Source of the DNA: a virus | Length of the DNA stretch: 64,000 nucleotides | Strand: one strand, 5' to 3' | Virus record (IMG/VR): IMGVR_UViG_3300036859_000309 | Location: 1 to 64,000 of that record | In this document: piece after piece, positions 6,984 through 59,033 of the stretch | Layout: each line of letters begins with the position of its first letter | How positions within the stretch are numbered: position 1 is the first letter of the stretch | Program-made: the position numbers and the translations under genes | The notes under the pieces: generated by a model | The model's database searches: none | Told to the model about the DNA's origin: nothing | What the model saw: only the letters and a program-made list of their open reading frames with translations

Positions 6984-8342
6984 GTGTCCTTTGAAGAACA
7001 CCTGAAAGCCAACCGCATGGACATCAAGCAACTCGGAGCCGAGGTCGTGAGGGCATGCCGGGAATTCGTCGAACAGAAGTTCGGCGTCCTCTCCAAGCAG
7101 CTCGACGAACTCAAGTTTCGCCTCGATGCGTTGCCGATGCCCAAGGACGGGTCTCCCGGCCGCGACGGCGTGGATGGCAAGGATGGACCACCCGGAGCTG
7201 ACGGCCAGAAGGGCGAGCCTGGACCTGACGGGGCGCCCGGCCGTGACGGCAAGGACGGTGCGCCTGGAGAGGCTGGCGTCAAGGGAGATGTCGGGCCTGA
7301 GGGAGCACCGGGTCGCGATGGCGCGCCAGGCGAGCGCGGCGAAGCGGGCGAGAAGGGCGCGGATGGGCTCCGGGGTGAACAGGGGCCGCGCGGAGAGAAG
7401 GGCGACCCCGGCGAAGCTGGCCAGCGTGGGGAAAAAGGCGAACGAGGCGAGCCCGGCATGGCCGGGGCCGATGGGCTGCCAGGAAAAGACGGGGTCCCTG
7501 GTGCCGACGGGGAACGGGGCGAGCGTGGCGAGAAGGGTGATCCTGGCGAAAAGGGAGAGAAAGGCGATCGGGGGGAGCGCGGCGAGCCCGGTCTTCCCGG
7601 AGAAGCTGGCACCCCTGGTGAACGCGGCCTGCCGGGCGAGAGGGGCATGGACGGCAAGAGCATCACGGTCGATGACGTTGAGCCGGTGCTCGCTGTAATT
7701 GTCGAGAAGGCCGTCGCGGCCCTGCCGAAGGCGAAGGACGGCGAGAGCGTGCCAATCGACCAGGTGCAACGCATGATCGATGAGGCCGTCGCCAAGGCGA
7801 TGGCTGCGGTGCGCATCCCCAAGGACGGCGAGCACGGCCGCGACGCTCTGGACATCGAGATCCTGCCGGCGATCAACGAAAGTCGGCGGTACGCGCGCGG
7901 CACCTACGCCAGCCACAACGGTGGCCTTTGGCGCGCGATGCGATCGACGGAGGGCATGGACGGCTGGGAGTGCATCGTCGACGGTGACCACGAGGACACG
8001 ATCGAGCTCGGCGCCGATCTCCGAACTTTCACCCTGCGCAAGGTCAAGAGCAGCGGCCGGGTGATGGAAAAGGCGTTCACCGTGCCGGTGATGATCTACC
8101 GCGGCGTGTTCAAGGCCGACCAGACATACGAGCCTGGCGACGCAGTGACATGGGATGGCGCAGTGTGGATCGCACAGGCCAAGAACAGCGACAAGCCGCC
8201 GGCTGAGAGCTGGCGCTTGGCCGTCAAGCGCGCAATGGACGGGCGCAACGGTCTGAGGGGCGAGAAGGGCGAGCGCGGCGCCCTCGGGCGCGCCGGCCGC
8301 GATCTCACGCAGATTGATCCTGCCACGGGCACGAAGTGGTGA
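6984..8342 (+). CDS. Collagen-like protein with carbohydrate-binding-type domain
   Basis: 452 residues. Residues 15-50 are a helical, probably trimerising stalk. Residues about 52-225 are nearly uninterrupted Gly-X-Y triplets, many GEKGE/GERGE, a collagen-like triple helix. A mixed domain follows, and near residue 370 comes YEPGDAVTWDGAVWIAQA, which resembles small chitin/carbohydrate-binding modules. A second short Gly-X-Y run sits near the C-terminus. The GTG at 6984 gives the longest form; ATG 7017 is an alternative. Its position between portal and connector suggests a virion fibre or head decoration. Confidence 0.8.
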   Translation: MSFEEHLKANRMDIKQLGAEVVRACREFVEQKFGVLSKQLDELKFRLDALPMPKDGSPGRDGVDGKDGPPGADGQKGEPGPDGAPGRDGKDGAPGEAGVKGDVGPEGAPGRDGAPGERGEAGEKGADGLRGEQGPRGEKGDPGEAGQRGEKGERGEPGMAGADGLPGKDGVPGADGERGERGEKGDPGEKGEKGDRGERGEPGLPGEAGTPGERGLPGERGMDGKSITVDDVEPVLAVIVEKAVAALPKAKDGESVPIDQVQRMIDEAVAKAMAAVRIPKDGEHGRDALDIEILPAINESRRYARGTYASHNGGLWRAMRSTEGMDGWECIVDGDHEDTIELGADLRTFTLRKVKSSGRVMEKAFTVPVMIYRGVFKADQTYEPGDAVTWDGAVWIAQAKNSDKPPAESWRLAVKRAMDGRNGLRGEKGERGALGRAGRDLTQIDPATGTKW

Positions 8343-8956
8343 TGTGGACCGTCCCCCCGCTTTGGCGCGGCCGAACCGTGGCCATCCTGGCCAGCGGGCC
8401 CAGCATGTCTCAGGAAGTGGCCGACCTGGTGCGATCGGCCGGCATCAGGGCCATTGCCATAAACAACACCTACCGGCTCGCGCCTTGGGCAGACATGCTC
8501 TACGCCGCAGACGCGCAGTGGTGGCGCGAGCACCCGTCGGCGCAGGAATTTCCAGGTCTGCGGGTCAGCGTTTCGGCGATGCCTGGGGTGCACCAGCTGC
8601 AGAACACCGGCACCGAAGGTTTCGAGCCGCATCGGATGGGTGTGCGCACCGGAGGCAACAGCGGGTACCAGGCGCTTCACATCGCGATCCACGGCGAGGC
8701 TCAGCGCATCCTGCTGTGTGGCTTCGACATGAGCAACCGCGGCGGCTTGCACTGGCATGGCGCGCATCCAGCGCCGCTGCGCAACACGGACGACCATTCC
8801 TATACCCGATGGGTGGCGCGTTTCGCCGCCCTGAAGGACATCGGCCCCGAGATCATAAATTGCACCCCCGGCTCGGCGATCACCTGCTTCCCGAGCATGG
8901 ACCTCCACGAGGCGCTGGACCATGAACATCACAGTCGTCACGCCGCCGCTGTTTGA
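8342..8956 (+). CDS. DUF115/sialyltransferase-like Rossmann protein
   Basis: 204 residues; the ATG overlaps the preceding stop (TGATG). It has a Rossmann-like start (VAILASGPSMSQE), a middle AINNTYRLAPWAD, and a conserved late motif GGNSGYQALHIAI followed by ILLCGFDMS. This arrangement resembles DUF115 (Maf-like) and GT42-type proteins that modify surface sugars; similar proteins occur in phages. It overlaps the connector gene by 35 bases, so it belongs to the head operon. Enzymatic activity and substrate are unknown. Confidence 0.55.
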   Translation: MWTVPPLWRGRTVAILASGPSMSQEVADLVRSAGIRAIAINNTYRLAPWADMLYAADAQWWREHPSAQEFPGLRVSVSAMPGVHQLQNTGTEGFEPHRMGVRTGGNSGYQALHIAIHGEAQRILLCGFDMSNRGGLHWHGAHPAPLRNTDDHSYTRWVARFAALKDIGPEIINCTPGSAITCFPSMDLHEALDHEHHSRHAAAV

Positions 8957-10494: not shown

Positions 10495-10847
10495 CCGTGC
10501 CAGCCCTCGTGTCTGCACTGGAGCCGTTGTTCGCCGGCGGCGTGTGGCCGCTGCGGGCCGACCAGGGCACCCCTATGCCGTACCTGACGTTCCAGCGGGT
10601 CGGTGGCCAACCTTCGAACACCTTCTGCGGCAATACCGACAAGGAGAACGGTCGTTGGCAGTTCAACGCCTGGGCCAGAACCTCGGAGCAAGCCGACTCG
10701 CTGATGAAGCAGGTGAAGGCGATCGTTTGCGACCAGGCAACCTTCTGCGGCGTATCGCTCGGCGAGCGCGAATGGGTCGAAGGCTACGACACGCGCACCT
10801 TCGGCGCCCGTCAGGACTTTTCCATCTGGTGGGCTACCACCGGATGA
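10491..10847 (+). CDS. DUF3168-family tail terminator-like protein
   Basis: 118 residues starting at an ATGA overlap. The signature MPYLTFQRVGG, then GRWQFNAWARTSEQAD and a final short strand is typical of DUF3168 proteins (gp17/gpU-like), which cap the tail tube at the head-proximal end. Its position just before the tail genes supports this. Confidence 0.8.
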   Translation: MTVPALVSALEPLFAGGVWPLRADQGTPMPYLTFQRVGGQPSNTFCGNTDKENGRWQFNAWARTSEQADSLMKQVKAIVCDQATFCGVSLGEREWVEGYDTRTFGARQDFSIWWATTG

Positions 10848-11386
10848 TGAAAGCCGCAGAGAAGTGCTGCTCGAGGTGCGGCGACGTGAAGGCGATGGAT
10901 CAGTTCGGTCTCCACAAAGGGAAGCCGCACACGTATTGCAAGGCATGTCGGCGGCTGGAATGCGCAGAGTGGCGCGCGCGCAATAAGGGCTACCGAGCAG
11001 CGTACTACGCCAAGAACGCAGCTGCAGAGAACAGCCGCCCGCGTCCCGACAAGAAGGCCTACTGCGAACGGAATCGGGAAACGATCAACCAACGGTCATT
11101 GGCGTGGGCAAAGGCAAACCCGGGGAAAGCGGCTGCGAGAGCTATGCGTCGGATTGCGACTGCAAAGCGGGCGACGCCACTCTGGGCATCCAAGGAACGC
11201 ATTGATGCCGTTTACGCGCTTGCGGCACGCCTGACGCGAGAAACCGGCGTTTCGCACCACGTGGACCACATCGTTCCACTCACCAGCCGTCTGGTGTGTG
11301 GCCTACATGTTGAATGGAACCTGCAGGTGCTTCCCGCGAGGGAGAACCTCGAAAAGAGCAATCGGAGCTGGCCACAAAAGCCATAG
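10844..11386 (+). CDS. HNH homing-type endonuclease with zinc ribbon
   Basis: 180 residues. The N-terminus has a zinc ribbon (CSRCG near residue 9 and YCKAC near 30), the middle is basic, and the C-terminus carries an HNH core: HHVDHIVPLTS, then HVEWNLQVLP and ENLEKSNR. The His-Asn-His residues are present, so it should be active. It sits between two essential tail genes, has an ATGA start overlap and is followed by a terminator, the pattern of an inserted homing endonuclease. Confidence 0.85.
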   Translation: MMKAAEKCCSRCGDVKAMDQFGLHKGKPHTYCKACRRLECAEWRARNKGYRAAYYAKNAAAENSRPRPDKKAYCERNRETINQRSLAWAKANPGKAAARAMRRIATAKRATPLWASKERIDAVYALAARLTRETGVSHHVDHIVPLTSRLVCGLHVEWNLQVLPARENLEKSNRSWPQKP

Positions 11387-11489: not shown

Positions 11490-11936
11490 ATGCCCTCCGA
11501 AGTAGTCCTCGTCCAGGGTCTCTCGATCCGCATCTCCAACAACGAAGTGACGGAGCTCAACCAGAGCCCGTCGCCGGCCTCGGCGGTACTCGATTGCATC
11601 GGCCGCGAGATCCAGTACCAAGGCGGTACCGCGACCGAGATCGACGTCACCACCTTCTGCTCGACCGCCAAGGAATTCCGCCTCGGCCTGGAGGACAGCG
11701 GCACCATGACGGTCTCCGGGCACTGGAAGCAAGGCAACGCCGCGCACGCGGTGATCCGGCAGGCGGCCGCCGACAAGCTCTCGCGCCTGATCGAGGTCGA
11801 GTTCGCAGACGGCTCAATCTTCCGATGCCTGGCCTTCGTGTCGCAGCGGTCCTGGTCAGCAGCCGTCGACGGCGTTGTCACCGCGACCTTCAACTTCCGC
11901 CTGACCGGCGCGACCGAAGAGATCGACCCGGCCTGA
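11490..11936 (+). CDS. Major tail tube protein
   Basis: 148 residues with AAAGGA seven bases upstream. The beta-rich sequence includes a tube-like loop region (STAKEFRLGLEDSGTMTVSG) and a C-terminal strand (GVVTATFNFRLTG), as in lambda gpV N-domain/TTP-type tail tube proteins. It lacks the extra Ig-like C-terminal domain of lambda gpV. It should polymerise as hexameric rings around the tape measure. Placement ahead of the chaperone genes would be canonical but for the sugar-modification cassette between them. Confidence 0.8.
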   Translation: MPSEVVLVQGLSIRISNNEVTELNQSPSPASAVLDCIGREIQYQGGTATEIDVTTFCSTAKEFRLGLEDSGTMTVSGHWKQGNAAHAVIRQAAADKLSRLIEVEFADGSIFRCLAFVSQRSWSAAVDGVVTATFNFRLTGATEEIDPA

Positions 11937-11941
11937 TACGC

Positions 11942-12706
11942 ATGCGCGCGCAATGCTCCCTGCCGGACGGCCCGAACTACCGCAAGGCAGAGTTCGTGGC
12001 CGGCCTCCGCGCGGCCGGCTACGAGGTCGAGGGTCGCATTGGACGCCCGACCCCGGCCGACATCCTGGTCATCTGGAATCGCACGGCGTCGCGCGAGCTC
12101 GAGGCGCTGCGCTTCGAGTATGCGGGCGCGCGGGTGTTGGTCTGCGAGAACGGCTACCTCGGCAAGGAGTGGCGCGGGCTCAAGTGGTTCGCCATGGCCT
12201 GGGGCCATCACCTGGGCGCCGGACTCTGGCCAGATTGCGGGCCCGAGCGTTGGGATTCCTGGGGCGTCGAGCTCTCGCCCTGGCGCACGAGCGGCCAGGA
12301 GACGGTAATCCTCGCGCAGCGCGGTATCGGCGAGCGCGGCATCGCATCGCCGCCGAACTGGGCGCAGGACGTGCAACGCCGCATCGGCGCCCGGATCCGG
12401 CAGCACCCTGGCGCGGAGGCGCCGGCGGTTCCGCTCAGCGAAGACCTGAAGGACGCTTCCTCCGTCGTGACCTTCCATAGCGCCGCGGCGCTGAAGGCGC
12501 TGATTCTCGGCGTCCCCGTCTGGCATGCGTTCGACCGATGGATCGGTGCGCGCGCGGCGCGGCCGCTATCGGAATTCGGCGGTGAGCCGAAGCGGGATGA
12601 CGGTGATCGCCTCGCCATGTTCCGGCGGCTCGCCTGGGCGATGTGGAGCGTCGATGAAGTTCGAAGCGGCGAACCATTCCGGAGGCTCGCATGCATGTCC
12701 TCATGA
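11942..12706 (+). CDS. Glycosyltransferase-like protein, cassette gene 1
   Basis: 254 residues. The N-terminal half has Rossmann-like strands (ADILVIWNR, GARVLVCENGYLG). The C-terminal half contains SSVVTFHSAAALKALILGVP, the pattern by which GT-B capsular-polysaccharide and Kdo-type transferases hold the donor. I infer a sugar transferase or capsule-synthesis-type enzyme; donor and acceptor are unknown. It starts six bases after the tail tube gene and overlaps the next cassette gene by 16 bases. Confidence 0.55.
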   Translation: MRAQCSLPDGPNYRKAEFVAGLRAAGYEVEGRIGRPTPADILVIWNRTASRELEALRFEYAGARVLVCENGYLGKEWRGLKWFAMAWGHHLGAGLWPDCGPERWDSWGVELSPWRTSGQETVILAQRGIGERGIASPPNWAQDVQRRIGARIRQHPGAEAPAVPLSEDLKDASSVVTFHSAAALKALILGVPVWHAFDRWIGARAARPLSEFGGEPKRDDGDRLAMFRRLAWAMWSVDEVRSGEPFRRLACMSS

Positions 12707-13524
12707 CAGGAAAAGGGACCAGCGGCAGCTGGGCTATTCGCGGCGTGCAGCTCGGCCAGACGATCGGCGCCGCTGTCATCCCGAACGCGCTGGATGTTGC
12801 GCCATACGACCTCGCGGTGCTCGTGAAGCGACCGACGGCTGATCTGCTGCAGCGCCTGCGTCGGGCGAACGTTCGGATCATCTGGGACGTGGTGGACGCA
12901 TATCCGCAGCCGGCCGGCAACGCATGGGGAAAGGAGCGCTGCCTCGACTGGCTGGAAGAGATGTTCGTGATGATCCAGCCGGCCGGGATCGTGGCGGCGA
13001 CCGAGGCCATGGCGAACGACTGCACTCGCTTCGGAGTGCCTGTGCTGGCGCTTCCGCACCACGCGCGGCCAGGCCTGAGGGCCAATCCGGTGCGGCCGGT
13101 CAAGGTGGTGGGCTACGAAGGCGGGGAGCACTACCTCGGCTGGTGGCGCGAAGTGATCGAGGCGGAATGCGCCCGGCGCGGCTGGCAATTCGTGATGCAG
13201 CCGGCCGAGCTCGCGGACGTCGACATCGTGCTCGCGCTCCGAGACGCCTGTGGCTACGCGCCGCGGCACTGGAAAAGCAACGTGAAGCTGGCGAACGCCC
13301 AAGGCAGCGGGACGCCGGTGATCTGCGGGCGTGAGGCCGGGTACCTCGAGACGCAGAGCGGCGCTGAGCGCTGGGCGGATACGCCAGAAGAGCTGACCGA
13401 GGCGTTCGATGCGCTGGAGCCGACCGAAGTGCGCTTCGCTGCCTCCCGTCTGCTGAAGGATGCCGCGCCGACCATCGATTCAATCGCGGAGACCTACCTT
13501 TCATGGCTTCGATCGAAATTCTGA
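12691..13524 (+). CDS. GT-B-type glycosyltransferase, cassette gene 2
   Basis: 277 residues. It resembles a short GT4-type enzyme: an N-terminal domain containing IIWDVVDAYPQP, and a C-terminal domain with NAQGSGTPVICGREAGYLE, matching the nucleotide-sugar binding loop (G-x-P-V-x-x...E). The N-terminal domain is smaller than in cellular enzymes. Overlaps at both ends imply co-translation with its neighbours. Acceptor unknown; possibly a virion protein or a host surface glycan. Confidence 0.6.
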   Translation: MHVLMTGKGTSGSWAIRGVQLGQTIGAAVIPNALDVAPYDLAVLVKRPTADLLQRLRRANVRIIWDVVDAYPQPAGNAWGKERCLDWLEEMFVMIQPAGIVAATEAMANDCTRFGVPVLALPHHARPGLRANPVRPVKVVGYEGGEHYLGWWREVIEAECARRGWQFVMQPAELADVDIVLALRDACGYAPRHWKSNVKLANAQGSGTPVICGREAGYLETQSGAERWADTPEELTEAFDALEPTEVRFAASRLLKDAAPTIDSIAETYLSWLRSKF

Positions 13525-14294
13525 GGGCGCGCCACCAATCGCCGACCGGCGAGGGGATGCTGAGGGCGCTGGCTGCGGCCGCTAAGGATGCCGGCGACCA
13601 GGTCACCGAGACCAGCAAGTTCAAGGGCGCCAGCGACTGGCTCGTTCTCTTCGGAGTCGGGGCCGACGTCAACAACCGGGCGCGCAAGGCGCAGATCGCG
13701 CGCGGCGCCCGCGCGCTGCTCTGGGACATGGGTTACATGGAACGGAAGAAGGTGGTCGGCCACTTGCGCATGTCGATCAACACGGACCATCCGCCGCAGT
13801 ACTTGGACCAAACCTCAGGCGACGCCAGTCGCTTCGATCCATTGGGCATCGCCCTGAGAGAGGACCACGACCCGGACGGCCCGATCCTGCTCATCGGCCT
13901 CGGTCGCAAGTCGCGCGCGTATCTCGGGCAGCCGAACTGGGAGGCCAAGAACTACGCAGCGCTGGCTGCGCGGTTCCCTGGGCGGCCAATCGTCTATCGG
14001 CCAAAGGGTGAGGACGACCTCGTGCTGCCTTGCAAGAAAGACGGCACGACGCCAATCGAGGATCTGCTGCGCGGCGCCGCGCTGGTGGTGTGCAGGCACA
14101 GCAACGTCGCGGTAGATGCCGCGATCGCCGGCGTGCCATTCGAGGCAGAGGACGGTGCCGCGATGTGGCTGCAGCAGCGGGAGTTCACGCCCGAGAACCG
14201 ACTGGAGTTTCTGCGCCGGCTGGCCTGGTGGCAGTGGAAATCGACCGAAGCGGCGCAGGCCTGGGCCTTCGCCAAGGGGATCACATGCGCTTGA
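13503..14294 (+). CDS. Glycosyltransferase-like protein, cassette gene 3
   Basis: 263 residues. After a variable N-terminus it has the strand ILLIGLGRKSRAYLG and, near residue 195, ALVVCRHSNVAVDAAIAGVP, again a GT-B donor-site pattern similar to that of cassette gene 1. The two may be distant paralogues. It overlaps the preceding gene by 22 bases and the methyltransferase gene by 10. Function inferred from the motif and context only. Confidence 0.5.
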   Translation: MASIEILRARHQSPTGEGMLRALAAAAKDAGDQVTETSKFKGASDWLVLFGVGADVNNRARKAQIARGARALLWDMGYMERKKVVGHLRMSINTDHPPQYLDQTSGDASRFDPLGIALREDHDPDGPILLIGLGRKSRAYLGQPNWEAKNYAALAARFPGRPIVYRPKGEDDLVLPCKKDGTTPIEDLLRGAALVVCRHSNVAVDAAIAGVPFEAEDGAAMWLQQREFTPENRLEFLRRLAWWQWKSTEAAQAWAFAKGITCA

Positions 14295-14788
14295 ATATCG
14301 GATGCGGCGGCCGTCGGCTGCCTGGGTACACGGGCGTGGACGCTGTGGAGCGCCCGGCTGCGGACATCATCGCGCCAGCTCACAAGGTGCCACTCGCTGA
14401 CGGTGTCGCCGAAGAGGTACTGGCAGTTCACTTGGTCGAGCACATCCTGCCTTGGGAACTCAAGGCGGCGCTCGCTGAATGGCATCGCCTGCTGCGGCCG
14501 CGTGGACTCCTGGTGCTCGAGCTTCCGGATCTGCTGAAGTGCTGCCGAAACATCTTGGACGGACGGGCGAAGGGCGGGAAGCACCCTGACCAGCTCGGAA
14601 TGTGGGGCTTGTTCGGCGACAACCGCTACGAAGACCCTTACATGCTGCACCGCTGGGCCTACACCTTCTCGACGCTGGCGCCGATCGTCGAAGAGGCAGG
14701 CTTCACAAGCATCGTGGAACGGACCACGCAATTCCATCCCGCGGGGCGTGAGCATCGCGATTTCAGGCTCGAAGCGCGCAAGGCCTGA
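14285..14788 (+). CDS. SAM-dependent methyltransferase, cassette gene 4
   Basis: 167-residue class I methyltransferase of the short type found in polysaccharide clusters. Motif I is LNIGCGGRRLPGYTGVD at the N-terminus, followed by VHLVEHIL and LRPRGLLVLELPD. The rest of the core is complete. Among glycosyltransferases, its likely substrate is a sugar hydroxyl or a glycan intermediate, but this is inference. Confidence 0.75.
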   Translation: MRLNIGCGGRRLPGYTGVDAVERPAADIIAPAHKVPLADGVAEEVLAVHLVEHILPWELKAALAEWHRLLRPRGLLVLELPDLLKCCRNILDGRAKGGKHPDQLGMWGLFGDNRYEDPYMLHRWAYTFSTLAPIVEEAGFTSIVERTTQFHPAGREHRDFRLEARKA

Positions 14789-14792
14789 AGGC

Positions 14793-15464
14793 ATGCTCAA
14801 CATCTATTTCGGCCACGACGAGCGGGCCGAGGCGGGTACGACCGTGTTCGTTCGCTCGGTAATCGCGACCACGCGGCAGCCTCTGTCGCTCACGCCCATC
14901 ACCAGGATGAACCTCGGTGCGCAGCCTGAGGGCTCTAACGCCTTCACGTTTCGGCGTTTCCTGGTGCCCTACCTGCAGGACTGGACTGGCTGGGCTGTGT
15001 TCGTGGACGGCAGCGACATGCTGTGCCGTGCCGATCTTGGCGAGATGCTGGCCCTGGCCGACCATCGAATGGCCGTTCAGGTGGTGAAGCACGACTACCA
15101 GACCAAGCACCCGCGCAAGTACCGCGGCACGGCCATGGAGGCCGACAACGCGGACTACGAGCGCAAGCAGTGGGCGAGTGTCATGCTGATCAACTGCAAC
15201 CACTTCGGCTGGCGCAAGCTGACGCCGGAGTACGTGGCCAAGGCGGACCCCTTGCACTTGCTGCAGCTGAGATTCCTGCCTGACGAACGAATCGGCGCGC
15301 TGCCGGCCGAGTGGAACTGGCTGGCCGACGAGCACGGCGTGAACGCTGACGCCAAGTTGCTGCACTTCACGGCAGGCATCCCCGCATTCTCCGAACACCA
15401 CGACGCGCCCATGGCGGACGAATGGCGCGCGCACCTTTATTTCTCAACCACAGCCACCGGCTAA
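14793..15464 (+). CDS. GT-A-like glycosyltransferase, cassette gene 5
   Basis: 223 residues. It starts with a short nucleotide-sugar domain (MLNIYFGHDERAEAG), then FRRFLVPYL and AVFVDGSDMLCRADL, a DxD-type metal and donor motif as in GT8-like enzymes. Later come SVMLINCNHFGWRKL and AEWNWLADE, also typical. It ends five bases before the tail chaperone gene, so the cassette is transcribed with the tail operon. Confidence 0.65.
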   Translation: MLNIYFGHDERAEAGTTVFVRSVIATTRQPLSLTPITRMNLGAQPEGSNAFTFRRFLVPYLQDWTGWAVFVDGSDMLCRADLGEMLALADHRMAVQVVKHDYQTKHPRKYRGTAMEADNADYERKQWASVMLINCNHFGWRKLTPEYVAKADPLHLLQLRFLPDERIGALPAEWNWLADEHGVNADAKLLHFTAGIPAFSEHHDAPMADEWRAHLYFSTTATG

Positions 15465-15469
15465 GCAAC

Positions 15470-15913
15470 ATGAAATTCGACATCGACGCGCTCGAGCAAT
15501 CGACCAACACCACCTTCGACTTGATCGTCGGCCACAAGGACGCCGGCAAAGACGCCGAAGGCAAGCCCATGCAGGGCGATCCGGTCGGATTCAAGGTGCT
15601 GGGCCCCGGCAGTGACCAATACAACAAGGTCGAGCGGGACATCCAGATCCTGAACATCAAAGAGGCGAACACCCGCAAGGCGCCCCTGGACATGAAGACC
15701 GACGAGGGCGCCGCCGTCGCGGCCGACGGTGGCGATATGCGCCGCGACCTGGTGATCTTTGCCTGCACGGTGGGCTGGTTTGGCTTCGAAGCCAACGGCC
15801 AGCCGGCCGAGTTCAGCCGCGAGAACCTCGCTCGCGTGCTCAAGGCTAGGCCGAACTGGGCGCGCCGGCTGCTCAACGCCATCGAGAACGAGGCAAATTT
15901 CGAAGGGGCCTGA
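15470..15913 (+). CDS. Tail assembly chaperone (gpG-like)
   Basis: 147-residue protein immediately upstream of the tape measure gene, the standard position of gpG-type chaperones that load on the tape measure before tube assembly. The sequence is acidic and compact (MKFDIDALEQST, VERDIQILN). Near its end the message has a slippery heptamer, and the -1 frame stays open to 16344, giving a longer gpGT-like product. ATG 15470 is the first start after the cassette. Confidence 0.8.
   Translation: MKFDIDALEQSTNTTFDLIVGHKDAGKDAEGKPMQGDPVGFKVLGPGSDQYNKVERDIQILNIKEANTRKAPLDMKTDEGAAVAADGGDMRRDLVIFACTVGWFGFEANGQPAEFSRENLARVLKARPNWARRLLNAIENEANFEGA
15895..15901 (+). promoter_or_regulatory. -1 programmed frameshift site
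   Basis: AAATTTC lies in frame as A-AAT-TTC, a canonical X-XXY-YYZ slippery heptamer, 10 bases before the chaperone stop. The -1 frame has no stop from 15850 to 16344 and no start suited to independent translation. This matches lambda G/GT. Confidence 0.8.
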
Positions 15914-16344
15914 CGGCGGCCCTGCTTGAGTTCGCCCGCGCGCATTTCGCGCTGTCAAAGCCCGATCCGAAGACGGGCAAGACCCGGCTCAAGCTGCTGA
16001 TCGAGATCCGGGAACAGACCGGTGTCGTTGCTCCCGAGCTGGAGCGGCTGCCGGCGCTCCCGATCGAAACCGCCCACGTGTGGGAGTGGTACCAGGACCT
16101 GAGCGCGGCCCGCGGCGCGGGCTTCAGCATCAACGCCATCGCCTGGACGGATATGTGGGCGTTCTTCGACCTGAAGCGCTTCCGTCCGGAGCCCTGGGAA
16201 GTGCAGGCGATCCGAGCGCTTGACGACGCATTCCTGATGAGTCGGCTCGATGCGACCACCAGCGCCGTAGCGGGTGCGAAGACCCTGAAGAACCAGATGA
16301 CGGGCAACGCCGCCAGGAATGGCGCGCCGCCAACGGGGAAGTGA
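15901..16344 (+). CDS. Frameshift extension of tail chaperone (gpT-like part)
   Basis: 147 codons reached by -1 slippage at 15895-15901, giving a fusion of about 291 residues with the first 144 of the chaperone. The extension contains a helical, Trp-rich stretch (WEWYQDLSAARGAGFS, then WTDMWAFFDLKRF), as expected for T domains that bind tail tube protein. A GTG at 16078 would give only the last 88 residues. Downstream is the tape measure gene, starting two bases after this stop. Confidence 0.75.
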   Translation, partial: RRGLTAALLEFARAHFALSKPDPKTGKTRLKLLIEIREQTGVVAPELERLPALPIETAHVWEWYQDLSAARGAGFSINAIAWTDMWAFFDLKRFRPEPWEVQAIRALDDAFLMSRLDATTSAVAGAKTLKNQMTGNAARNGAPPTGK

Positions 16345-34401: not shown

Positions 34402-34440
34402 CATGGTATCGGGGATGGCATCGAGGAGGCCGATACCATG
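34402..34440 (+). promoter_or_regulatory. Inverted repeat covering the integrase start
   Basis: CATGGTATCGG (34402-34412) and CCGATACCATG (34430-34440) are perfect 11-bp inverted arms. The 17-base loop holds the GAGGAGG ribosome site, and the right arm contains the integrase ATG. It could be an mRNA hairpin controlling translation or an operator. Confidence 0.7.
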
Positions 34441-35628
34441 GGTTTGACCGCAAAGGCGGTGGAGGCGGCCAAGCCGCGCGAGAAGGGTTACAAGCTGGCG
34501 GATGGGCAGGGCCTGTATCTGTTCGTGACCCCGGCGGGCGGCAAGAGCTGGCGGGCCAACTACACCGAGGCCGGCAAACAGAAGACCCGGACCTATGGGC
34601 GCTGGCCGGATATGGGCCTCTCGGATGCGAGGAAGGCGCACGCCGGCGCCAAGGAAGCGCCGAAGCTCGAGGCCAAGGCCGTGCCCACCTTCGAGGCCGC
34701 GGCGCGCGAGTGGCTCAAGATCAAGCTGCCCTCGCTGTCCAACACGAAGCACCAGATCCAGGTCGAGAACACGCTGGAGCGCTTCGTCTTTCCGTCGATC
34801 GGTACGATGCCCATCGACGCGATACCACGCACCAAGCTGGTCGACGTGGTACGGGCGGCCCAGGCTGGCGACAGGATCGAGACCGCGCACCGCGTGGCCG
34901 GGCGCATTACCGCGGTCTTCGATCATGCGCAGGACGTGGGCCACATCGAGAGCCACGGCGCCGCGGGGCTCACCCGGGTGCTGGTGGCGCGCAAGACCAA
35001 GAAGCCCATGGCCAGCATCCCCCCGACCGAAGCGGGGGCGCTGCTGCGCGCGATCGACGACTATGACGAGCCGATCACCCGGCTTGGCCTCTGGCTGCTG
35101 GCGTACACCTTCGTGCGCGTGGGCGAGCTGCGCGGCATGGCCTGGTCGGAGTTCAAGGAAGATGGCGCCGTGTGGGTGGTTCCCGCCGATCGCGTGAAGG
35201 GCGACGAGGAGAAGGCCCTGCCGCACGTGGTGCCGATGTCGCGCCAGGCGCGCGCCGTGGTCGAGCAGCTGCGGCTGCTGACGGGCGAAAAGGCGCTGGT
35301 GCTCGACTCAACCCTGCGCCCGGGGCATCCACTGTCGGAGAACACCTTCCTGTTCGCCCTGTACCGGCTGGGCTACCGTGGGCGCATGACGGCCCACGGG
35401 TTCCGCGCGCTGGCGTCGACGGTGCTCAATGAGCAGTCCGGATTCCCGCATGACGTCATCGAGCGCCAGCTGCAGCACAAGGAAACGGACGCGGTGCGCG
35501 CGGCGTACAACCGGGCGCAGTACCTCACGCAGCGGCGTGCTCTGATGCAGTGGTGGTCGGATTGGCTTGAGGAGCAATGCAAGCATGCAGGTCCGCCACG
35601 CGCCAGCGGGTCATCCCCGCCACCTTGA
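34438..35628 (+). CDS. int: Tyrosine integrase, P4 type
   Basis: 396-residue site-specific recombinase. The N-terminal DUF4102-like DNA-binding domain (LTAKAVEAAKP, YKLADGQGLYLFV) is followed by a core-binding domain and a catalytic domain with Arg in FVRVGELRG, HGFR, LQHKE and the nucleophile Tyr near AYNRAQYL. All catalytic residues are present. The ATG lies within an inverted repeat. It should integrate the phage at a host attB, probably a tRNA gene. Its 3' end overlaps the excisionase-like gene on the other strand by 104 bases. Confidence 0.92.
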   Translation: MGLTAKAVEAAKPREKGYKLADGQGLYLFVTPAGGKSWRANYTEAGKQKTRTYGRWPDMGLSDARKAHAGAKEAPKLEAKAVPTFEAAAREWLKIKLPSLSNTKHQIQVENTLERFVFPSIGTMPIDAIPRTKLVDVVRAAQAGDRIETAHRVAGRITAVFDHAQDVGHIESHGAAGLTRVLVARKTKKPMASIPPTEAGALLRAIDDYDEPITRLGLWLLAYTFVRVGELRGMAWSEFKEDGAVWVVPADRVKGDEEKALPHVVPMSRQARAVVEQLRLLTGEKALVLDSTLRPGHPLSENTFLFALYRLGYRGRMTAHGFRALASTVLNEQSGFPHDVIERQLQHKETDAVRAAYNRAQYLTQRRALMQWWSDWLEEQCKHAGPPRASGSSPPP

Positions 35629-40333: not shown

Positions 40334-40707
40334 GGTTCGACCTCGAAGAAGCCCAGCGCGCCCTTCAGCGGCTGGAAGGGGAGGGGCTTAGCATTGGCGA
40401 GCACGAAGCCCACGGCGCCCATGTACCAGGGCGAGTCGCTATGCTCGACGCAGTCGACGACGTCGACCTGGCCGACGATTCCGCCTCGTTCTAAGGCTTC
40501 GTAAGGCGGAACGTGCGGCCTCGTCTGCGCGGGCAGCTTGGTCACCAAGAACATCACCACGTCCTGGTATTCGCGGCGCGTCATCGCCTGACCGGCGTGC
40601 ACAAGGATCGTCCCGCGCTCGCGCGTGCGCCAGCTGCGGTTCTCGATGTCCTTGTGGCCGTTGACGATCAGCCACGCCCACGGCTGGCGGATGGAGAGCG
40701 CCTTCAT
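40330..40707 (-). CDS. ASCH-domain protein
   Basis: 125 residues matching the ASCH/PUA-like fold: MKALSIRQPWAWLIVNGHKD, then RTRERGTILVHAGQ and GGIVGQVDVVDCV. Such proteins bind RNA or modified nucleotides. ATGA overlap with the Gp37/Gp68 gene upstream. Target unknown. Confidence 0.85.
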   Translation of the reverse strand: MKALSIRQPWAWLIVNGHKDIENRSWRTRERGTILVHAGQAMTRREYQDVVMFLVTKLPAQTRPHVPPYEALERGGIVGQVDVVDCVEHSDSPWYMGAVGFVLANAKPLPFQPLKGALGFFEVEP

Positions 40708-41822
40708 GCCGGCACCTCGTTCCACTCGCGGCCGTCCAGCAGGCGGCCGGCGCCCTTCTTACCGATGCGGTCCATGGTCTGGCGGAAGGGGTTCGGGCCT
40801 CCTGGGGTCCACGCACCGGCATAGGTGAACATGCCCGACTCGACCTTCGTGCGATCGCGCTCGTAGAGATCGCCGCCGGGTCCGCCGTTGCCAGGCGCCC
40901 AGGCGCCCCATTGCTTGAACAGGTAGGCGATGCCGTGCGCCTGGGCGAAGTCGCGCGCGGCGCGGTGCCAGTCCGGATGCGACGGCCGCGCCTTGTGGCC
41001 GCTCTCGCCCCCGCTGATGAGCTGCTTCAGGAACTCCCAGCCGGCCCAGTCCACTGGGCCGAGCGCCGGCTCGTAGCTCGCGAAGGTCTTCCAGCCCGCG
41101 GCCGCGATGCGCTGCATGTGCGGGCGCAGCTCGTCTGCGCGCTGCTGATCTTCAACCGTGCAGCCGATGAAGACGTTGGGCATGGGCCAGTAGTTCGTCG
41201 CCTCTCCGCGCCAGTCGCTCCAGTCCGGGTAGATGCCGTCTGCGATATTGCCGGCAGACACGCGGTTGTGCGCCCACCGGTAGGCGGCGTGGGAAACGAG
41301 TTTGCGGAACCGCGAGTCCAAGAGCAGGGTCGCCATGCGCGCGCCGCGCTTCGTCAGCACCATGAAGGTGTGCGGGCCGCTGAGCATGTTCGGCAACTTG
41401 ATCTGCACTTCCTCGGCGGCGGCGTGCATCTTGTAGGTGCCGCCGGGCGTAAAGCCGTCCTGTTCGCGATGGAACGGCCCAGTCGCGCCGGCCACGGCCA
41501 TCACGCCGAACATCTCAGCGATCTGCTCCGGCGTCAGCGCTTCGTGCGCGACGTCGCCCATGCTGGTGAGGAACCACCGGCCGGGCCGGCGCACCGTCAG
41601 CGGCTTCACCAGGTCGGCCTCGCTGAAGTTGACCTTGCCGGTCCACTTACCCTTGCCGCCTGCGCGCACCGCGACGCCGCGGTACTTCTCTTGGCCCATG
41701 GCCTCGAGGCGCGCAGCCATCAGGGCGGCGTAGCAGTTGGCGCACGCAGGCGAGACGGCATCGCAACCGACAACCGGCGTCCAGGTGTGATCGCACCATT
41801 CGATCTTCGTGGTGCTGGTCAT
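40704..41822 (-). CDS. Phage Gp37/Gp68 family protein (DUF5131)
   Basis: 372 residues. The N-terminus TKIEWCDHTWTPVVGC and ACANCYA contains the clustered cysteines typical of the family, followed by GRWFLTSMGDVAHE and FMVLTKRGARM. The Cys pattern recalls radical-SAM-like iron-sulfur proteins, but the reaction is not established. Common in phage early operons. Last four bases overlap the ASCH gene. Confidence 0.85.
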   Translation of the reverse strand: MTSTTKIEWCDHTWTPVVGCDAVSPACANCYAALMAARLEAMGQEKYRGVAVRAGGKGKWTGKVNFSEADLVKPLTVRRPGRWFLTSMGDVAHEALTPEQIAEMFGVMAVAGATGPFHREQDGFTPGGTYKMHAAAEEVQIKLPNMLSGPHTFMVLTKRGARMATLLLDSRFRKLVSHAAYRWAHNRVSAGNIADGIYPDWSDWRGEATNYWPMPNVFIGCTVEDQQRADELRPHMQRIAAAGWKTFASYEPALGPVDWAGWEFLKQLISGGESGHKARPSHPDWHRAARDFAQAHGIAYLFKQWGAWAPGNGGPGGDLYERDRTKVESGMFTYAGAWTPGGPNPFRQTMDRIGKKGAGRLLDGREWNEVPA

Positions 41823-42848: not shown

Positions 42849-44542
42849 TCACGCTGCCCTCCGCTGCGGCTTATCCCACAGGTCGCTGTAGTTCGCCGCG
42901 GTGACGGCACGCTGCAGCCCGGGCGGCACGGCGTTTCCGATCATGGCCACCTGCTGGGTCTTGGTGAACATGCGGCCGTCGTGGCCGCGGTCGATGACGT
43001 ATTGGCGCGGGAAGCCCGTGGCGTTGGCCAGCTCGCGCGGCACCAGCATGCGCAGGCAGATGTCGACCACCGCCCACGGCTCGCCGCGGATCCAGACGGT
43101 CACCAGCGCCAGCCGGTCCTTCGTGGTGATGGTGTGGACCGGCTCGCGCAGGTCGCCCCATTGGCCGCCGGCGCCGTAGTAGCGGATCAGGAAAGCGGCG
43201 CAGCGCAGAGCGCCGGCCTCAGCATCGGGCGCGAGGTGGTACTCGACCAGGCCGTGGTGCTGGCCGCCAGCGCTCACCGTGCGTAGCGGCTCATCCAGCG
43301 GCCGCGCGTCGCAGTTGCCGCGCAGGTGCGCCAGGTGTGCGGTGACCAAGCGCTGGTTCGCGCCCTTTGTCATGATCGTGGACAGCGGGCCCTCCAGGCT
43401 GTGCGCCGGCAGCGCGTTGCCGAAGCCGTTGGCCTGCTCGACGAAGGCGGTCACCAGCGCATGCTTGGCGCCGCCGGCGACGACCGTGCCGAGCGGCTGC
43501 TCGATGTCGAGCGCCCGCGGCGCCTGGCCAGTGCGCTCGCCGTAGCCTGTCTGCACCAGGACCGGCGTTGCGAGCATGAACTCGCCGCGCTGAGCGGTAG
43601 TCACGGTGCGCAGCGGCTCGCGGATGTCGTGGACCCGGACCCCGCCGCTGTGCGTTACCGGCACGATGAAGGGATCGCTGCTGTCCAGCACGAAGCGTTT
43701 CATGCCGTGGGCCACGCGCCGGCAGGTGGCATCCGCCAGCGGCTTCGGCCGGTCGAAGATGCTGCGGGACGGCAGGTTGAAGTCGATGCACTCGGCGGCC
43801 GAGCGCCACTTCTTCACCCCCTTGGCGGGCTTGCGCGCGTGCGTCGCCTCGGGCCACTGGATGGGCAGGCCGTCGCGGCGCGCGACCATGAAGAGCCGCG
43901 TGCGTGTGGTGGGCACGCCATAGTCGGCGGCGCGCAGCAGTCGGTGCTCGATCACATAGCCCTGGCTGCGCAGGATGGCCAGGAAGCGCTCCCAGGTCTG
44001 GCCCTGGCGCTTCGGGTCTGGCACCAGGTGCTGCAGGCGCCGCGGCACGTATTCGCCGGGCGCCGCCACGGTGCCGTCGAGCTTGATGACGCGGCCCGTG
44101 GCCTTGTCGCGCTTGGCGATCAGCGGGCCCCATTTCCGGATTTGATCAACGTTCTCAAGGGTGATGACATCGGGGCAGGCCTGGCCGGCCCAGCGCACCA
44201 CCACCCAGGACAGCGACCGGATCTCGGTGTCGCGCGGCTGGCCGCCCAGCGCCTGGCTGAAGTGCGTGCAATCCGGGCTCGCGTGGAAGTAGCCCGCCGG
44301 CCGGCCGCCGGCCGGCCGCCGGTCAGTTCGCGCGGGCACAGCTCGCGAACGTCCTTGCGGTAGTGGCGGGTCTGCGGGTGGTTGACGGCGTGGCACGAGA
44401 CGGCGTCGTCGTTGTGGTTGACGGCGATGTCCACGTGCCGGCCGATCGCCTGCTCGATGCCGGTGCAGCTGCCGCCGGAGCCGGCGAACAGCACGATCAC
44501 CAGCTTCGCGGCGAGGTTGAGGACGAACTGGGGCGAGATCAT
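42849..44542 (-). pseudogene. C5-cytosine DNA methyltransferase, frame-split by 11-bp repeat
   Basis: Two frames make one enzyme. The first (44542 to about 44323) holds the start and motif I (VIVLFAGSGGSCTGIEQA). The second (about 44294 to 42849) holds the catalytic PDC of SPDCTHFS, motif VI ENVDQ, a target-recognition region and the C-terminal GNAVPP motif. They meet at a tandem CGCCGGCCGGC repeat; removing one 11-base unit would give an uninterrupted 560-residue protein. As read, translation gives a 140-residue truncated product ending at 44120. It may be phase-variable, mutated, or a sequence error. Confidence 0.8.
44295..44322 (+). repeat. 11-bp tandem repeat in the methyltransferase gene
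   Basis: CGCCGGCCGGC twice (44295-44305, 44306-44316) plus a partial third copy CGCCGG. Loss of one unit, or gain of two, restores the reading frame of the methyltransferase. Confidence 0.9.
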
Positions 44543-45448: not shown

Positions 45449-46498
45449 TCAGGAAACGCGCTCGACGTCGGTGCGCGTCGGTCCGAAGCTGCGCAGCGCG
45501 CAGGGCGTGTCCAAGGTGTGCTGATCGCAGTGCGTCAGGACCAGGTTGAAATCGGGGGAGCCGAAGTCATCAGCGCAACGGGCGCGCAGCTGGTCGGCAT
45601 CGAGGTGAGCGAAGCGAAGCGCGCCCTGGTATGGGTGGTCGACGTTCGTGTCGTCTGTGAACCGAAGCGCCGGATCTTCATGGGCCAGCGGGCCGGCGCC
45701 ATGCCGCGTCACGTAGGTGCGGCTGACGTAGTAGGCGTCGATCTGGTCGATCCCAGCCGAGGCGCAGAGCTTGCGCACGTTGTGCATCCCCGTCTTGGAA
45801 TGCGTGACGTGCGGCCAGTACTCTTTGCGGTCCTGGTCCAGCATCAGTCCCTGGGCACCCTCGAATACAGGATCGACGCATTGGCCGATGCCGGCTGGGT
45901 GCACCGCCTGCGCGAACTTCTCGCACCCGTGCACGAAGGCTTCGATCATGGCTTCGGCGTCCTCGATGGGCTTCCCGCTGCGGAAGGTTGCCCACTTGCC
46001 GCAGATCTCGCGCAGCTTTTCCTTGAGGCGCCCCGGCTGGCCGTGCCAGAGGTCGGACATCGTGATCGACAGGATCTGGCTGCGCTGAATGGTCTCGTGA
46101 ATGCCCAGGCCCACGCTACCGTGTCGCTTCGCGCCGCGGGAATCCTCCTTGCGCTGGTTGATGATCATGTCGGCGAAGGTGGTGACACGGCACTCAGGCG
46201 AAGCGAAGACCATCGGATGCACGCCCAGGTGATGAAGCGCGTCCATCTCCTTGAAGAACATCAGCGGGTTCACCACGAAGTACTCCGACAGGAACGTGGG
46301 CACGCCGCAGAACGCGCCGGCGCCGACGTGCTGGAACACGTGGCGCTGCCCTTCTGGCGTGACGACGGTGTGGCCTGCTTGGCTGCCACCGTTGAACCGC
46401 ACCACAACGCCGGCGCCCTGCGTGGAGCACAGGTAGTCCGTGATGAGACCCTTACCTTCATCGCCGAACGAAGCCCCGACTACCACCCTCGCGCGCAT
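45449..46498 (-). CDS. Adenylosuccinate synthetase homologue (PurA/PurZ family)
   Basis: 349 residues, shorter than bacterial PurA (about 430). GTP-site loop GDEGKGL with Asp13, IMP-site GGSQAGHTVV with its His, FEGAQGLMLD and TRHGAGPL are all present. PurA joins IMP and aspartate; phage PurZ makes the aminoadenine precursor from dGMP. From memory, PurZ proteins replace catalytic Asp13 by Ser; here Asp is kept, so substrate cannot be assigned. ATG overlaps the stop of the VWA gene. No DatZ or MazZ partner is visible. Confidence 0.85.
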   Translation of the reverse strand: MRARVVVGASFGDEGKGLITDYLCSTQGAGVVVRFNGGSQAGHTVVTPEGQRHVFQHVGAGAFCGVPTFLSEYFVVNPLMFFKEMDALHHLGVHPMVFASPECRVTTFADMIINQRKEDSRGAKRHGSVGLGIHETIQRSQILSITMSDLWHGQPGRLKEKLREICGKWATFRSGKPIEDAEAMIEAFVHGCEKFAQAVHPAGIGQCVDPVFEGAQGLMLDQDRKEYWPHVTHSKTGMHNVRKLCASAGIDQIDAYYVSRTYVTRHGAGPLAHEDPALRFTDDTNVDHPYQGALRFAHLDADQLRARCADDFGSPDFNLVLTHCDQHTLDTPCALRSFGPTRTDVERVS

Positions 46499-56209: not shown

Positions 56210-56526
56210 GTCTGGTCGACCCCAAGAACCCCGCGCGCTGGTGCGATGGCTCCCTGCGCAGCCAGGGCAACGGATTCACGAACGGCTTCGGAGATCCCAT
56301 CAACTGGACCATTGCCACCGTGCGTGCGGCGGCCGGTCCAAAGATCTCGGCGGCACACGAGCGCCAGCGCCAAGAAGGCAAGAACCCGGGCGCGTTCTAC
56401 GGCCTGTCCAGGAAGTCCGACGAGAGCCTCCAGACGCGACCCAAGTACTCGGCGCCCATCGAGGGCCGCGAGGCTGGCCTGCTCGCAACCGAGAAGCGCC
56501 AGCGGGCGTCGAAGGCGAGCATCTGA
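56206..56526 (+). CDS. Hypothetical protein
   Basis: 106 residues, hydrophilic, with a Gly/Asn-rich patch (SQGNGFTNGFGDPINWTIA) and basic C-terminus. Coupled by ATGA and TGATG to its neighbours. Possibly a partner of the helicase-methyltransferase; no family recognised. Confidence 0.55.
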   Translation: MSLVDPKNPARWCDGSLRSQGNGFTNGFGDPINWTIATVRAAAGPKISAAHERQRQEGKNPGAFYGLSRKSDESLQTRPKYSAPIEGREAGLLATEKRQRASKASI

Positions 56527-59033
56527 TGGACTACATCGAGTTCCTTCGCTCGAAGATGCCGCTGGCCAGCTTCACTGGCTTCGACGTCGACCTGGAGCAG
56601 ATCAATCCGAACCTGAAGCCACACACGCGCGACATCGTGCGCTGGATGGTGAAGGGCGGCAACCGCGCGGTGTTCGCCAGCTTCGGACTGCACAAGACCG
56701 CGACCCAACTGGAGGCGCTGCGCCTGATCGGGCAGCACCGACCTGGCCTGTGCCTGCAGGTGTTGCCGCTCGGCGTGCGCCAAGAATTTTTTCGCGAGGT
56801 CGAGCAGCGCTTCACCGGCGACTATGCGATCGACTTGCGTTTCATCCGATCGGACAGTGAGATCGACGACGAACGCACGATCTACCTGACGAACTACGAG
56901 AGCGTGCGCGAGGGCAAGATCACGCCCAAGCTGTTTCGCGCGACGAGCCTTGACGAAGCCAGCATCCTGCGCAGCTACGGCAGCAAGACCTATCAGGAGT
57001 TCCTGCCCGCCTTCGCCGAGGTCGAGTTCAAGTTCGCGGCGACTGCGACGCCGGACCCCAACCGCTACAAGGAGCTGATCCACTACGCCGGCTACCTGGG
57101 CGTCATGGATACGGGCCAGGCCCTGACGCGCTTCTTCCAGCGCGACAGCGAGAAGGCCGGCAATCTCACCCTGTACCCCCACAAGGAAGCCGAGTTCTGG
57201 CTGTGGGTGGCCAGCTGGGCAGTGGTCATCACAAAGCCGAGTGACCTCGGCCACAGCGACGACGGCTATGTCCTGCCGGAGCTGGACGTGCGCTGGCACG
57301 AGGTGCCGAGCGACTACACGGCGGCCGGGGCGGACAAGGTGGGGCAGGGCCTGCTGATCCCGAACGTGGCGCTCGGCCTCTCCGCCGCGGCGACCGAGAA
57401 GCGCGACAGCCTGCCGGCGCGCGTGGCGAAGGTGCGCGAGATCGTCGAAGCGGATCCCGCTGACCACTTCATTCTCTGGCACGACCTCGAAGACGAGCGG
57501 CACGCGCTGCAGGAAGCGGTCCCCGAGGCGGTCAGCGTCTGGGGTTCGCAGGACCTAGAAGAACGCGAGGCTCGCATCGTCGGATTCAGCGACGGCGAGC
57601 ACCGGATCCTTTCCACGAAGCCGATCATTGCCGGCAGCGGCTGCAATTTCCAGCGGCACTGCCATCGAGAGGTCTTCGCCGGCATCGGCCACAAATTCAA
57701 CGACTTCATCCAGGCCGTTCACCGGACCTATCGCTTTGGGCAGCAGGGGCGTGTGCGCCTCGACATCGTTCATACAGAGGCCGAGCGCGCAATCAAGGCC
57801 GACCTGCTGGCTAAGTGGCGCCGCCACGACGAGCAGCAGGCGCGCATGGCCGAGTTGGTGCGCACCTACGGCCTTGACCAACTGGCGATGCAAGACACGC
57901 TGGCCAGGACGATCGGCATCGAGCGCCGTGAGGTGTCCGGGGAGCGCTTCACCGTCGCGAATAACGATTGCGTGTTGGAGGCCCAGCTGCGTCCGGCGAA
58001 CTCTGTCGATCTGATTGTGACGAGCTGCCCATTCGCAAACCATTACGAATACACGCCCAGCTACAACGACTTCGGACACACCGAGGACAACTCGCACTTC
58101 TGGGCGCAGATGGACTACCTGACGCCTGAGCTGTTTCGGATCCTGAAGCCGGGCCGCGAGCTGTGCCTGCACGTCAAGGACCGCGTGATGTTCCAGTCGG
58201 TCAGCGGCTTGGGCGCGCCGACGATGGACTATTTCCACGAGGAAGCCTCGTTCCATCTGCGCAAGCACGGCTTCGTGAAGATGGCAGTGATCACGATCAC
58301 CACCGACGTGGTGCGTGAGAACAACCAGACGTATCGCCTTGGCTACAGCGAAATGCTCAAGGACGGCACGAAGATGGGGGCAGGGTGCTCGGAATACCTG
58401 CTCATCTTCCGCAAGCCACAGACCGACTTGGCGCGCGGCTACGCCGATGAACCCGTGACCAAGGATCCAGCCGAATACAGCCTCGCGCGCTGGCAGGTTG
58501 ATGCGCACGACTACTGGCGTTCGAGCGGCAATCGCCTCATGTCGAGCGCTGAGATGGCGGCCATGGGGCCGGCGAAGCTGGCGAAGTTCTTCACGGAAGA
58601 CAGCCTGCGCCGCGTCTATGACTACGAGCGGCATGTCGCGATCGGCGAAGAGCTCGGCGCGCGTGACGCGCTGCCAAAGAAGTTCATGTGCCTGGCGCCC
58701 GGCAGCACGGACCCGAACGTGTGGACGGATGTCCTGCGCATGGACACCCTGAATAGCGAGCAGTCTGCGCGGGCCGTCGAGAAGCACGTCTGCCCACTCC
58801 AATTCGACATCGTTGACCGAGCGATCCGGCGGTATAGCAACCCCGGCGATCTCGTCTATGACCCGTTCCATGGGCTGGGAACCGTCGGCGTCCGTGCGAT
58901 CAAGCTGGGCCGGCGTGCAGGAGGGTCGGAGCTCAATGCCGCCTACTTCGCTGACCAGGTGCACTACCTGAAGGCGGCCGAGCGCGATGCATCCATGCCG
59001 AGCCTCTTCGACCTCGAGGAGCTCGCGGCATGA
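56526..59033 (+). CDS. SF2/SNF2-like helicase fused to DNA methyltransferase
   Basis: 835 residues. Residues 1-490 resemble an SNF2-type helicase: FASFGLHKTATQLEAL (altered motif I), LDEAS near 160 (motif II), and VHRTYRFGQQGRV (motif VI). Residues 490-835 are a DNA amino-methyltransferase: catalytic TSCPF in place of the usual (D/N/S)PP(Y/F), then DPFHGLGTVGVRAIKLGR as SAM motif. Such fusions occur in phages and resemble single-chain restriction-modification motors without a nuclease. It may methylate phage DNA for protection. Confidence 0.8.
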   Translation: MDYIEFLRSKMPLASFTGFDVDLEQINPNLKPHTRDIVRWMVKGGNRAVFASFGLHKTATQLEALRLIGQHRPGLCLQVLPLGVRQEFFREVEQRFTGDYAIDLRFIRSDSEIDDERTIYLTNYESVREGKITPKLFRATSLDEASILRSYGSKTYQEFLPAFAEVEFKFAATATPDPNRYKELIHYAGYLGVMDTGQALTRFFQRDSEKAGNLTLYPHKEAEFWLWVASWAVVITKPSDLGHSDDGYVLPELDVRWHEVPSDYTAAGADKVGQGLLIPNVALGLSAAATEKRDSLPARVAKVREIVEADPADHFILWHDLEDERHALQEAVPEAVSVWGSQDLEEREARIVGFSDGEHRILSTKPIIAGSGCNFQRHCHREVFAGIGHKFNDFIQAVHRTYRFGQQGRVRLDIVHTEAERAIKADLLAKWRRHDEQQARMAELVRTYGLDQLAMQDTLARTIGIERREVSGERFTVANNDCVLEAQLRPANSVDLIVTSCPFANHYEYTPSYNDFGHTEDNSHFWAQMDYLTPELFRILKPGRELCLHVKDRVMFQSVSGLGAPTMDYFHEEASFHLRKHGFVKMAVITITTDVVRENNQTYRLGYSEMLKDGTKMGAGCSEYLLIFRKPQTDLARGYADEPVTKDPAEYSLARWQVDAHDYWRSSGNRLMSSAEMAAMGPAKLAKFFTEDSLRRVYDYERHVAIGEELGARDALPKKFMCLAPGSTDPNVWTDVLRMDTLNSEQSARAVEKHVCPLQFDIVDRAIRRYSNPGDLVYDPFHGLGTVGVRAIKLGRRAGGSELNAAYFADQVHYLKAAERDASMPSLFDLEELAA

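Follow-up and report, generated by a model that had tools for sequence, protein, structure and literature searches.

In the virus record IMGVR_UViG_3300036859_000309, five genes that appear to encode sugar-modifying enzymes stand between the genes for the tail tube protein and the tail assembly chaperone, which raises the question of what such enzymes do in a tail operon. We analyzed positions 1 to 64 000 of this 68.8 kb record (hereafter, the window). Our best reading is that the five genes belong to a real, conserved and exchanged phage glycosylation island, larger than first reported and a variant of known phage virion glycosylation. We favor, with moderate confidence, the explanation that this island is expressed late and adds a short, methyl-capped glycan to a virion protein; we infer the acceptor, the donors and the order of action from the observations below. 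The genes of the cassette and their neighbors are as follows.

GTB1, 11942-12706, + strand: GT-B protein with a predicted β-Kdo (3-deoxy-D-manno-oct-2-ulosonic acid)-transferase-like fold and an HP motif, without the QXXXD nucleophile
GTB2, 12691-13524, + strand: probable GT-B glycosyltransferase (Glyco_trans_1_2 and Glyco_trans_4_4, both below cut-off)
GTB3, 13503-14294, + strand: GTB1 paralogue in which RPK replaces RxHP (hhalign, alignment)
MT, 14285-14788, + strand: class I S-adenosylmethionine methyltransferase, with ATG at 14285 (Methyltransf_11)
GTA, 14793-15464, + strand: predicted GT8-type GT-A glycosyltransferase with D72/D75 and H191-xxx-G-x-P (predicted fold, alignments)
SIA, 8342-8956, + strand: sialyltransferase/MptE-like protein of 204 aa (phrog_4603; Pfam MptE-like, below cut-off)
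Collagen-like post-portal protein, 6984-8342, + strand: directly 5΄ of SIA (Pfam Collagen, 2e-33; phrog_1289 C-terminal domain)
Tail tube protein (TTP), 11490-11936, + strand: 5΄ neighbor of the cassette (Pfam Phage_TTP, 2e-8; phrog_158, 9e-26)
Tail assembly chaperone (TAC), 15470-15913, + strand: 3΄ neighbor of the cassette (phrog_313, 1e-6)

A preliminary description of this DNA had reported five open reading frames (ORFs) at 11942-15464 that continue the tail operon, and three lines of evidence agree with it. Gene prediction from codon usage returned exactly GTB1, GTB2, GTB3, MT and GTA, and the cassette genes overlap by 16, 22 and 10 bases or are separated, from each other and from the TTP and chaperone genes, by gaps of 4-5 bases. 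The nearest relative found was a prophage contig of Variovorax sp. JS1663 (L090). The ratios of nonsynonymous to synonymous substitution rates (dN/dS) against the Variovorax prophage contig were 0.14-0.29 for each of the cassette genes and 0.10-0.16 for the structural neighbors; because the former lie in or slightly above the range of the latter, the cassette genes are real and maintained. The five genes are thus coding and under purifying selection, and their position in the late operon supports the earlier proposal that they are expressed late, together with the tail.

The cassette is not complete with these five genes, however, since it has a sixth member, SIA, which lies outside the interval previously described and is the usual first gene in relatives. 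The collagen-like gene and SIA overlap at their stop and start codons, respectively. The protein matches phrog_4603, α-2,3-sialyltransferase (E = 6e-45), and, below the curated cut-off, the Pfam family MptE-like (4.9e-5), and its motifs GPS, NSG and H..H are conserved in 31 relatives. GTB1 follows SIA as the next gene in 56/81 scored contigs.

Relatives in viral contigs numbered 164 for GTB1, 54 for GTB2 and 166 for GTA, and the 119 mapped contigs formed 102 clusters at 90% identity. The usual order across about 100 distinct contigs was a post-portal or other head gene followed by SIA, GTB1, often a second methyltransferase gene (MT2), GTB2, GTB3, MT, GTA and a connector (head-tail adaptor) gene, and in almost every mapped contig the cassette stood among head, connector or tail genes. 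The cassettes of relatives also included genes for FkbM-type and further methyltransferases, GT9-like enzymes, a flavin adenine dinucleotide (FAD) oxidoreductase and a short-chain dehydrogenase/reductase (SDR), which represent a sugar-tailoring repertoire. A BNR-repeat, sialidase-like protein is encoded within the cassette of one relative (L123, 4004-4990). Adjacency of the tube and chaperone genes had been assumed to be the norm, and this was confirmed: among relatives with a tube gene, a chaperone-like gene of 90-175 aa came next in 47/53 and the cassette in 5/53. A survey of related phages for the same insertion, as had been proposed, accordingly showed a cassette that is widespread in structural-gene regions but whose tube/chaperone slot is a minority placement. 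In the window and in L093, L122 and L125, SIA is located near the head-tail genes and the other five genes between tube and chaperone. Two more ORFs for collagen-like proteins and one of 227 aa lie between the portal and post-portal genes of the Variovorax contig L093 (2354-5498), in a fast-changing slot. GTB1 was present in 1/251 Comamonadaceae genomes. Phage records gave no match in a nucleotide search with the cassette and none in protein searches with GTB2 and GTB3, and we found no published description of the cassette in the literature searched.

Structure prediction (AlphaFold2) covered GTB1 and GTA and, combined with the fold search that had been suggested for this locus, gave transferase rather than non-transferase folds for both. 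The GTB1 model (predicted local distance difference test score, pLDDT, 90.8) was most similar among solved structures (Foldseek/VIA) to KpsC (Z = 12.7), WbbB (12.1) and KrkA (8.9), with Z values of 11.3-12.7 across the KpsC and WbbB structures and ≤6.7 for all others. As modeled, GTB1 has the rare fold of the retaining β-Kdo transferases (GT99/GT107/GT140), which among viral models was shared by algal-virus ‘capsule polysaccharide biosynthesis’ proteins and a CcrColossus protein. KpsC, WbbB and KrkA use the Asp of their invariant QXXXD motif as nucleophile and bind cytidine monophosphate (CMP) through an HP motif (PMC10148158, PMC12887879). The HP motif of GTB1 (H155-P156) was invariant in 66/66 orthologues, as were E69 and N70, and its motif order is that of Comamonadaceae KpsC-like modules (EDGFLR-QxxxD-HP). 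Together with the Gly at its QXXXD site (see below), this gives GTB1 the predicted fold and probably a CMP-sugar site, but not the known retaining mechanism. A comparison of GTB1 with GTB3 by hhalign gave a probability of 99.3%, which identifies GTB3 as a paralogue; profile searches with GTB3 returned no family match, and those of the PDB with GTB1 and GTB2 nothing significant.

The GTA model (pLDDT 94.8) matched a GT8 structure (3tzt, Z = 17.3), WbbM (17.2) and LgtC (16.3), as well as GlyE, and a profile match to WbbM was also obtained (0.0011). D75, H191, G195 and P197 were invariant among 35 sequences, and D72 was conserved in at least 90% of them; the metal-motif spacing is DxxD, and DCD in the Caulobacter phage counterparts. 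GTA thus resembles the GT8 family and WbbM (LgtC, GlyE, glycogenin) in predicted fold and in its Asp/His metal-site motifs, although identity to them is about 14-16%, and it also matches phrog_28018, whose function is not annotated. The GT-A-like protein of the preliminary description is accordingly modeled as a GT8-type GT-A enzyme in which the expected metal-site Asp/His are conserved. MT, likewise, was correctly described as a class I methyltransferase, judging from its match to Methyltransf_11 (1e-6, over the cut-off). Three proteins had been called GT-B-like, which holds for GTB1 by predicted fold and for GTB3 by paralogy, whereas for GTB2 the matches to Pfam are weak: Glyco_trans_4_4 in the window protein (0.0024, below cut-off) and Glyco_trans_1_2, which does not reach the cut-off in the window protein, in 4/6 relatives (best E = 6e-4). 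GTB2 is a probable GT-B glycosyltransferase on the basis of these matches.

The history of the cassette bears on how the enzymes might divide their work. Compared with the window, contigs L094 and L095 showed 67-78% identity in GTB1-GTB3 but only 41-45% in SIA, and homologues of the window HTC1 (adaptor), TTP and TAC were not detectable in them. By these comparisons, the five-gene unit moves between phages with unrelated tails, and SIA less so. Such gene-by-gene mosaic identity is what a variable surface glycan would lead one to expect, and the pattern looks like a shuffling of glycan-structure genes. A single origin of the tube/chaperone placement was rejected: the five contigs with this placement did not group together in the GTB1, GTB2 or GTB3 trees, and their scatter fits repeated insertion or allele exchange. 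Because the extension genes travel apart from SIA, the choice of acceptor may rest with SIA, and the other five enzymes may act on a sugar already attached.

Under the favored explanation, SIA would prime or recognize the acceptor, the β-Kdo-transferase-like GTB1 and GTB3 would extend the chain together with GTB2 and GTA, the last probably using a UDP-hexose, and MT would cap the glycan by methylation. GTB1 and SIA would be the likeliest users of CMP-activated ulosonic acids. CMP-Kdo, a precursor of lipopolysaccharide (LPS), is available in Gram-negative hosts. A search of the phage record for a CMP-sugar synthetase gave no match (the positive control matched), and the donors would therefore be supplied by the host. 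The virion appears to be the best-supported acceptor, given the position in the operon, the absence of membrane-spanning segments from the cassette proteins by hydropathy and the precedent of mycobacteriophages.

That precedent concerns glycans reported on the C-termini of capsid and tail tube proteins; for Che8 and its relatives, modification of capsid and tail tube subunits by phage-encoded glycosyltransferases has been shown or inferred (Freeman 2023, via PMC11256854 and PMC12619734). In the Maravista relative, as presented there, the glycosyltransferase genes are near the 3΄ end of the genome, whereas here the genes for six predicted enzymes, Kdo-transferase-like and sialyltransferase-like proteins among them, are part of the head-tail operon in proteobacterial phages. 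A closer parallel in gene order is found in the Caulobacter giant phages CcrColossus, C1 and relatives, in which a tail protein gene, SIA, GTB1, a GTB1 paralogue (GTB1b) and GTA follow one another in the late region; however, this set lacks GTB2 and an orthologous GTB3, precedes the lysis genes and is annotated mostly as hypothetical.

Several observations weigh against the proposal of a virion glycan. The SIA profile matched solved CstII at the noise level (E about 0.3), and its sialyltransferase label is therefore a lead. Although GTB1 is like KpsC (GT107), WbbB (GT99) and KrkA (GT140) in predicted overall fold, HP motif and Q126, it is about 254 aa long and without sequence-profile similarity to them, and hhalign found none with four Comamonadaceae KpsC-like proteins; because of this negative result, the link to KpsC rests on predicted fold and motif order. 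Moreover, GTB1 reads QRGIG at the QXXXD site, with Gly130 in place of the catalytic Asp in 66/66 orthologues (Q126 is kept), in a register set by motif order rather than by residue-level superposition of structures, and its transferase chemistry is therefore putative. The characterized bacterial enzymes that resemble GTB1 act on LPS or capsule, not on protein. In L112 and L116, the cassette lies 3΄ of nuclease and helicase genes instead of structural genes. The weak association with collagen genes and the composition of the collagen rod, given next, belong on the same side.

The tube, the fibre or the collagen-like protein had been suggested as targets, and none of them is singled out, because a minority of cassettes occupy the tube slot, the unit crosses unrelated tubes and the collagen is nearly without Ser/Thr. 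A narrower form of the virion proposal, in which the collagen-like post-portal protein is the specific acceptor of a dedicated collagen-glycosylation system, is improbable. A gene of the post-portal/collagen family lies directly 5΄ of SIA in 33/85 distinct contigs and within four genes in 54/85, the stop of the collagen-like gene overlaps the SIA start in the window, and among portal relatives the cassette was enriched with collagen (10/12 versus 14/31, Fisher test, P = 0.039, not corrected for phylogeny). However, this association is weak, the collagen protein is similarly placed in many cassette-free phages among 80 portal relatives, and in other contigs the position 5΄ of SIA is taken by major capsid, portal, connector or tail genes. 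No hydroxylase was found in the cassette, and the rod, whose 64 GXY triplets contain only 2 Ser and 1 Thr, is a poor acceptor candidate; a dedicated collagen target is not sustained by the 80 portal relatives and this Ser/Thr content. C-terminal Ser/Thr enrichment was absent from the tube and portal proteins of cassette phages, and that of their capsid proteins (15% versus 13%, P = 0.025, uncorrected for three tests) was not used.

Alternatively, the enzymes might modify the LPS core or capsule of the host, either at a late stage of infection or during lysogeny, and mask receptors, so sparing released virions or blocking superinfection. We regard this as rather doubtful, but it stands because the characterized fold relatives act on LPS, lipooligosaccharide (LOS) or capsule: among solved structures, the closest relatives of GTB1 work on O-antigen or capsule, LOS and O-antigen enzymes are found among the closest to GTA, and the label of SIA comes from LOS sialyltransferases. 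The role of CMP-Kdo in LPS synthesis and the temperate nature of the phage, which carries an integrase, also fit. On the other hand, the proteins have no membrane segments by hydropathy, almost all relatives have the cassette embedded, with overlaps, among head-tail genes, and no O-antigen-type flippase, polymerase or acetylase was seen among the cassette genes examined. Glycosylation of phage DNA to give hypermodified bases is an unlikely role, to which we give very little weight. Phage glycosyltransferases that hypermodify DNA do exist (Pyle 2024, as cited in PMC12619734), and genes for C5-cytosine and N6/N4 methylases and a PurZ-like gene occur in this genome; however, the late operon that holds the cassette is remote from the nucleotide-metabolism block (40-51 kb), and a thymidylate-synthase-like hydroxymethylase is absent from the record (the search control matched). 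A search for TET/JBP (Tet_JBP) also gave no match, as did its controls.

The phage itself is temperate and lambda-like-tailed, with a tyrosine integrase at 34438-35628 and a tape measure protein matched by TMP_2 (5e-76). The PurZ-like adenylosuccinate synthetase (45449-46498, - strand; Pfam 5e-40, phrog_1211 8e-57) suggests 2-aminoadenine DNA in a temperate, integrase-bearing phage, although the partners DatZ or MazZ were not identified. The C5-cytosine methylase is encoded at 42849-44339 (- strand), the N6/N4 methylase-domain protein at 56526-59033 (+ strand) and a DUF5131 protein at 40704-41822 (- strand). In the tail operon, an open frame 3΄ of the chaperone gene and one frame off (15850-16344, + strand) resembles a frameshifted chaperone extension, for which a slippery site was not identified, and the 642-base gap between the tail terminator and tube genes contains an ORF (10844-11386, + strand) that resembles an HNH endonuclease in its paired Cys motifs and DHIVPL...N ending.

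A bolder extension of the virion proposal, which we offer tentatively and consider unlikely as a whole, is that an acidic Kdo- or sialic-like glycan made from host LPS precursors coats many Gram-negative phages through a new CMP-sugar GT-B family that retains the Kdo-transferase fold without its catalytic Asp, with extension genes swapped like serotype genes to give changeable, LPS-like virion surfaces. Virion glycosylation has been shown for a few mycobacteriophages. The island adds a new enzyme family, of predicted Kdo-transferase fold and with no recognized nucleophile, together with a case of glycan genes shuffled between unrelated tail operons. With six enzymes in about 100 distinct contigs, among them a Variovorax prophage and Caulobacter phages that can be cultured, it would make virion glycosylation testable in Gram-negative models.

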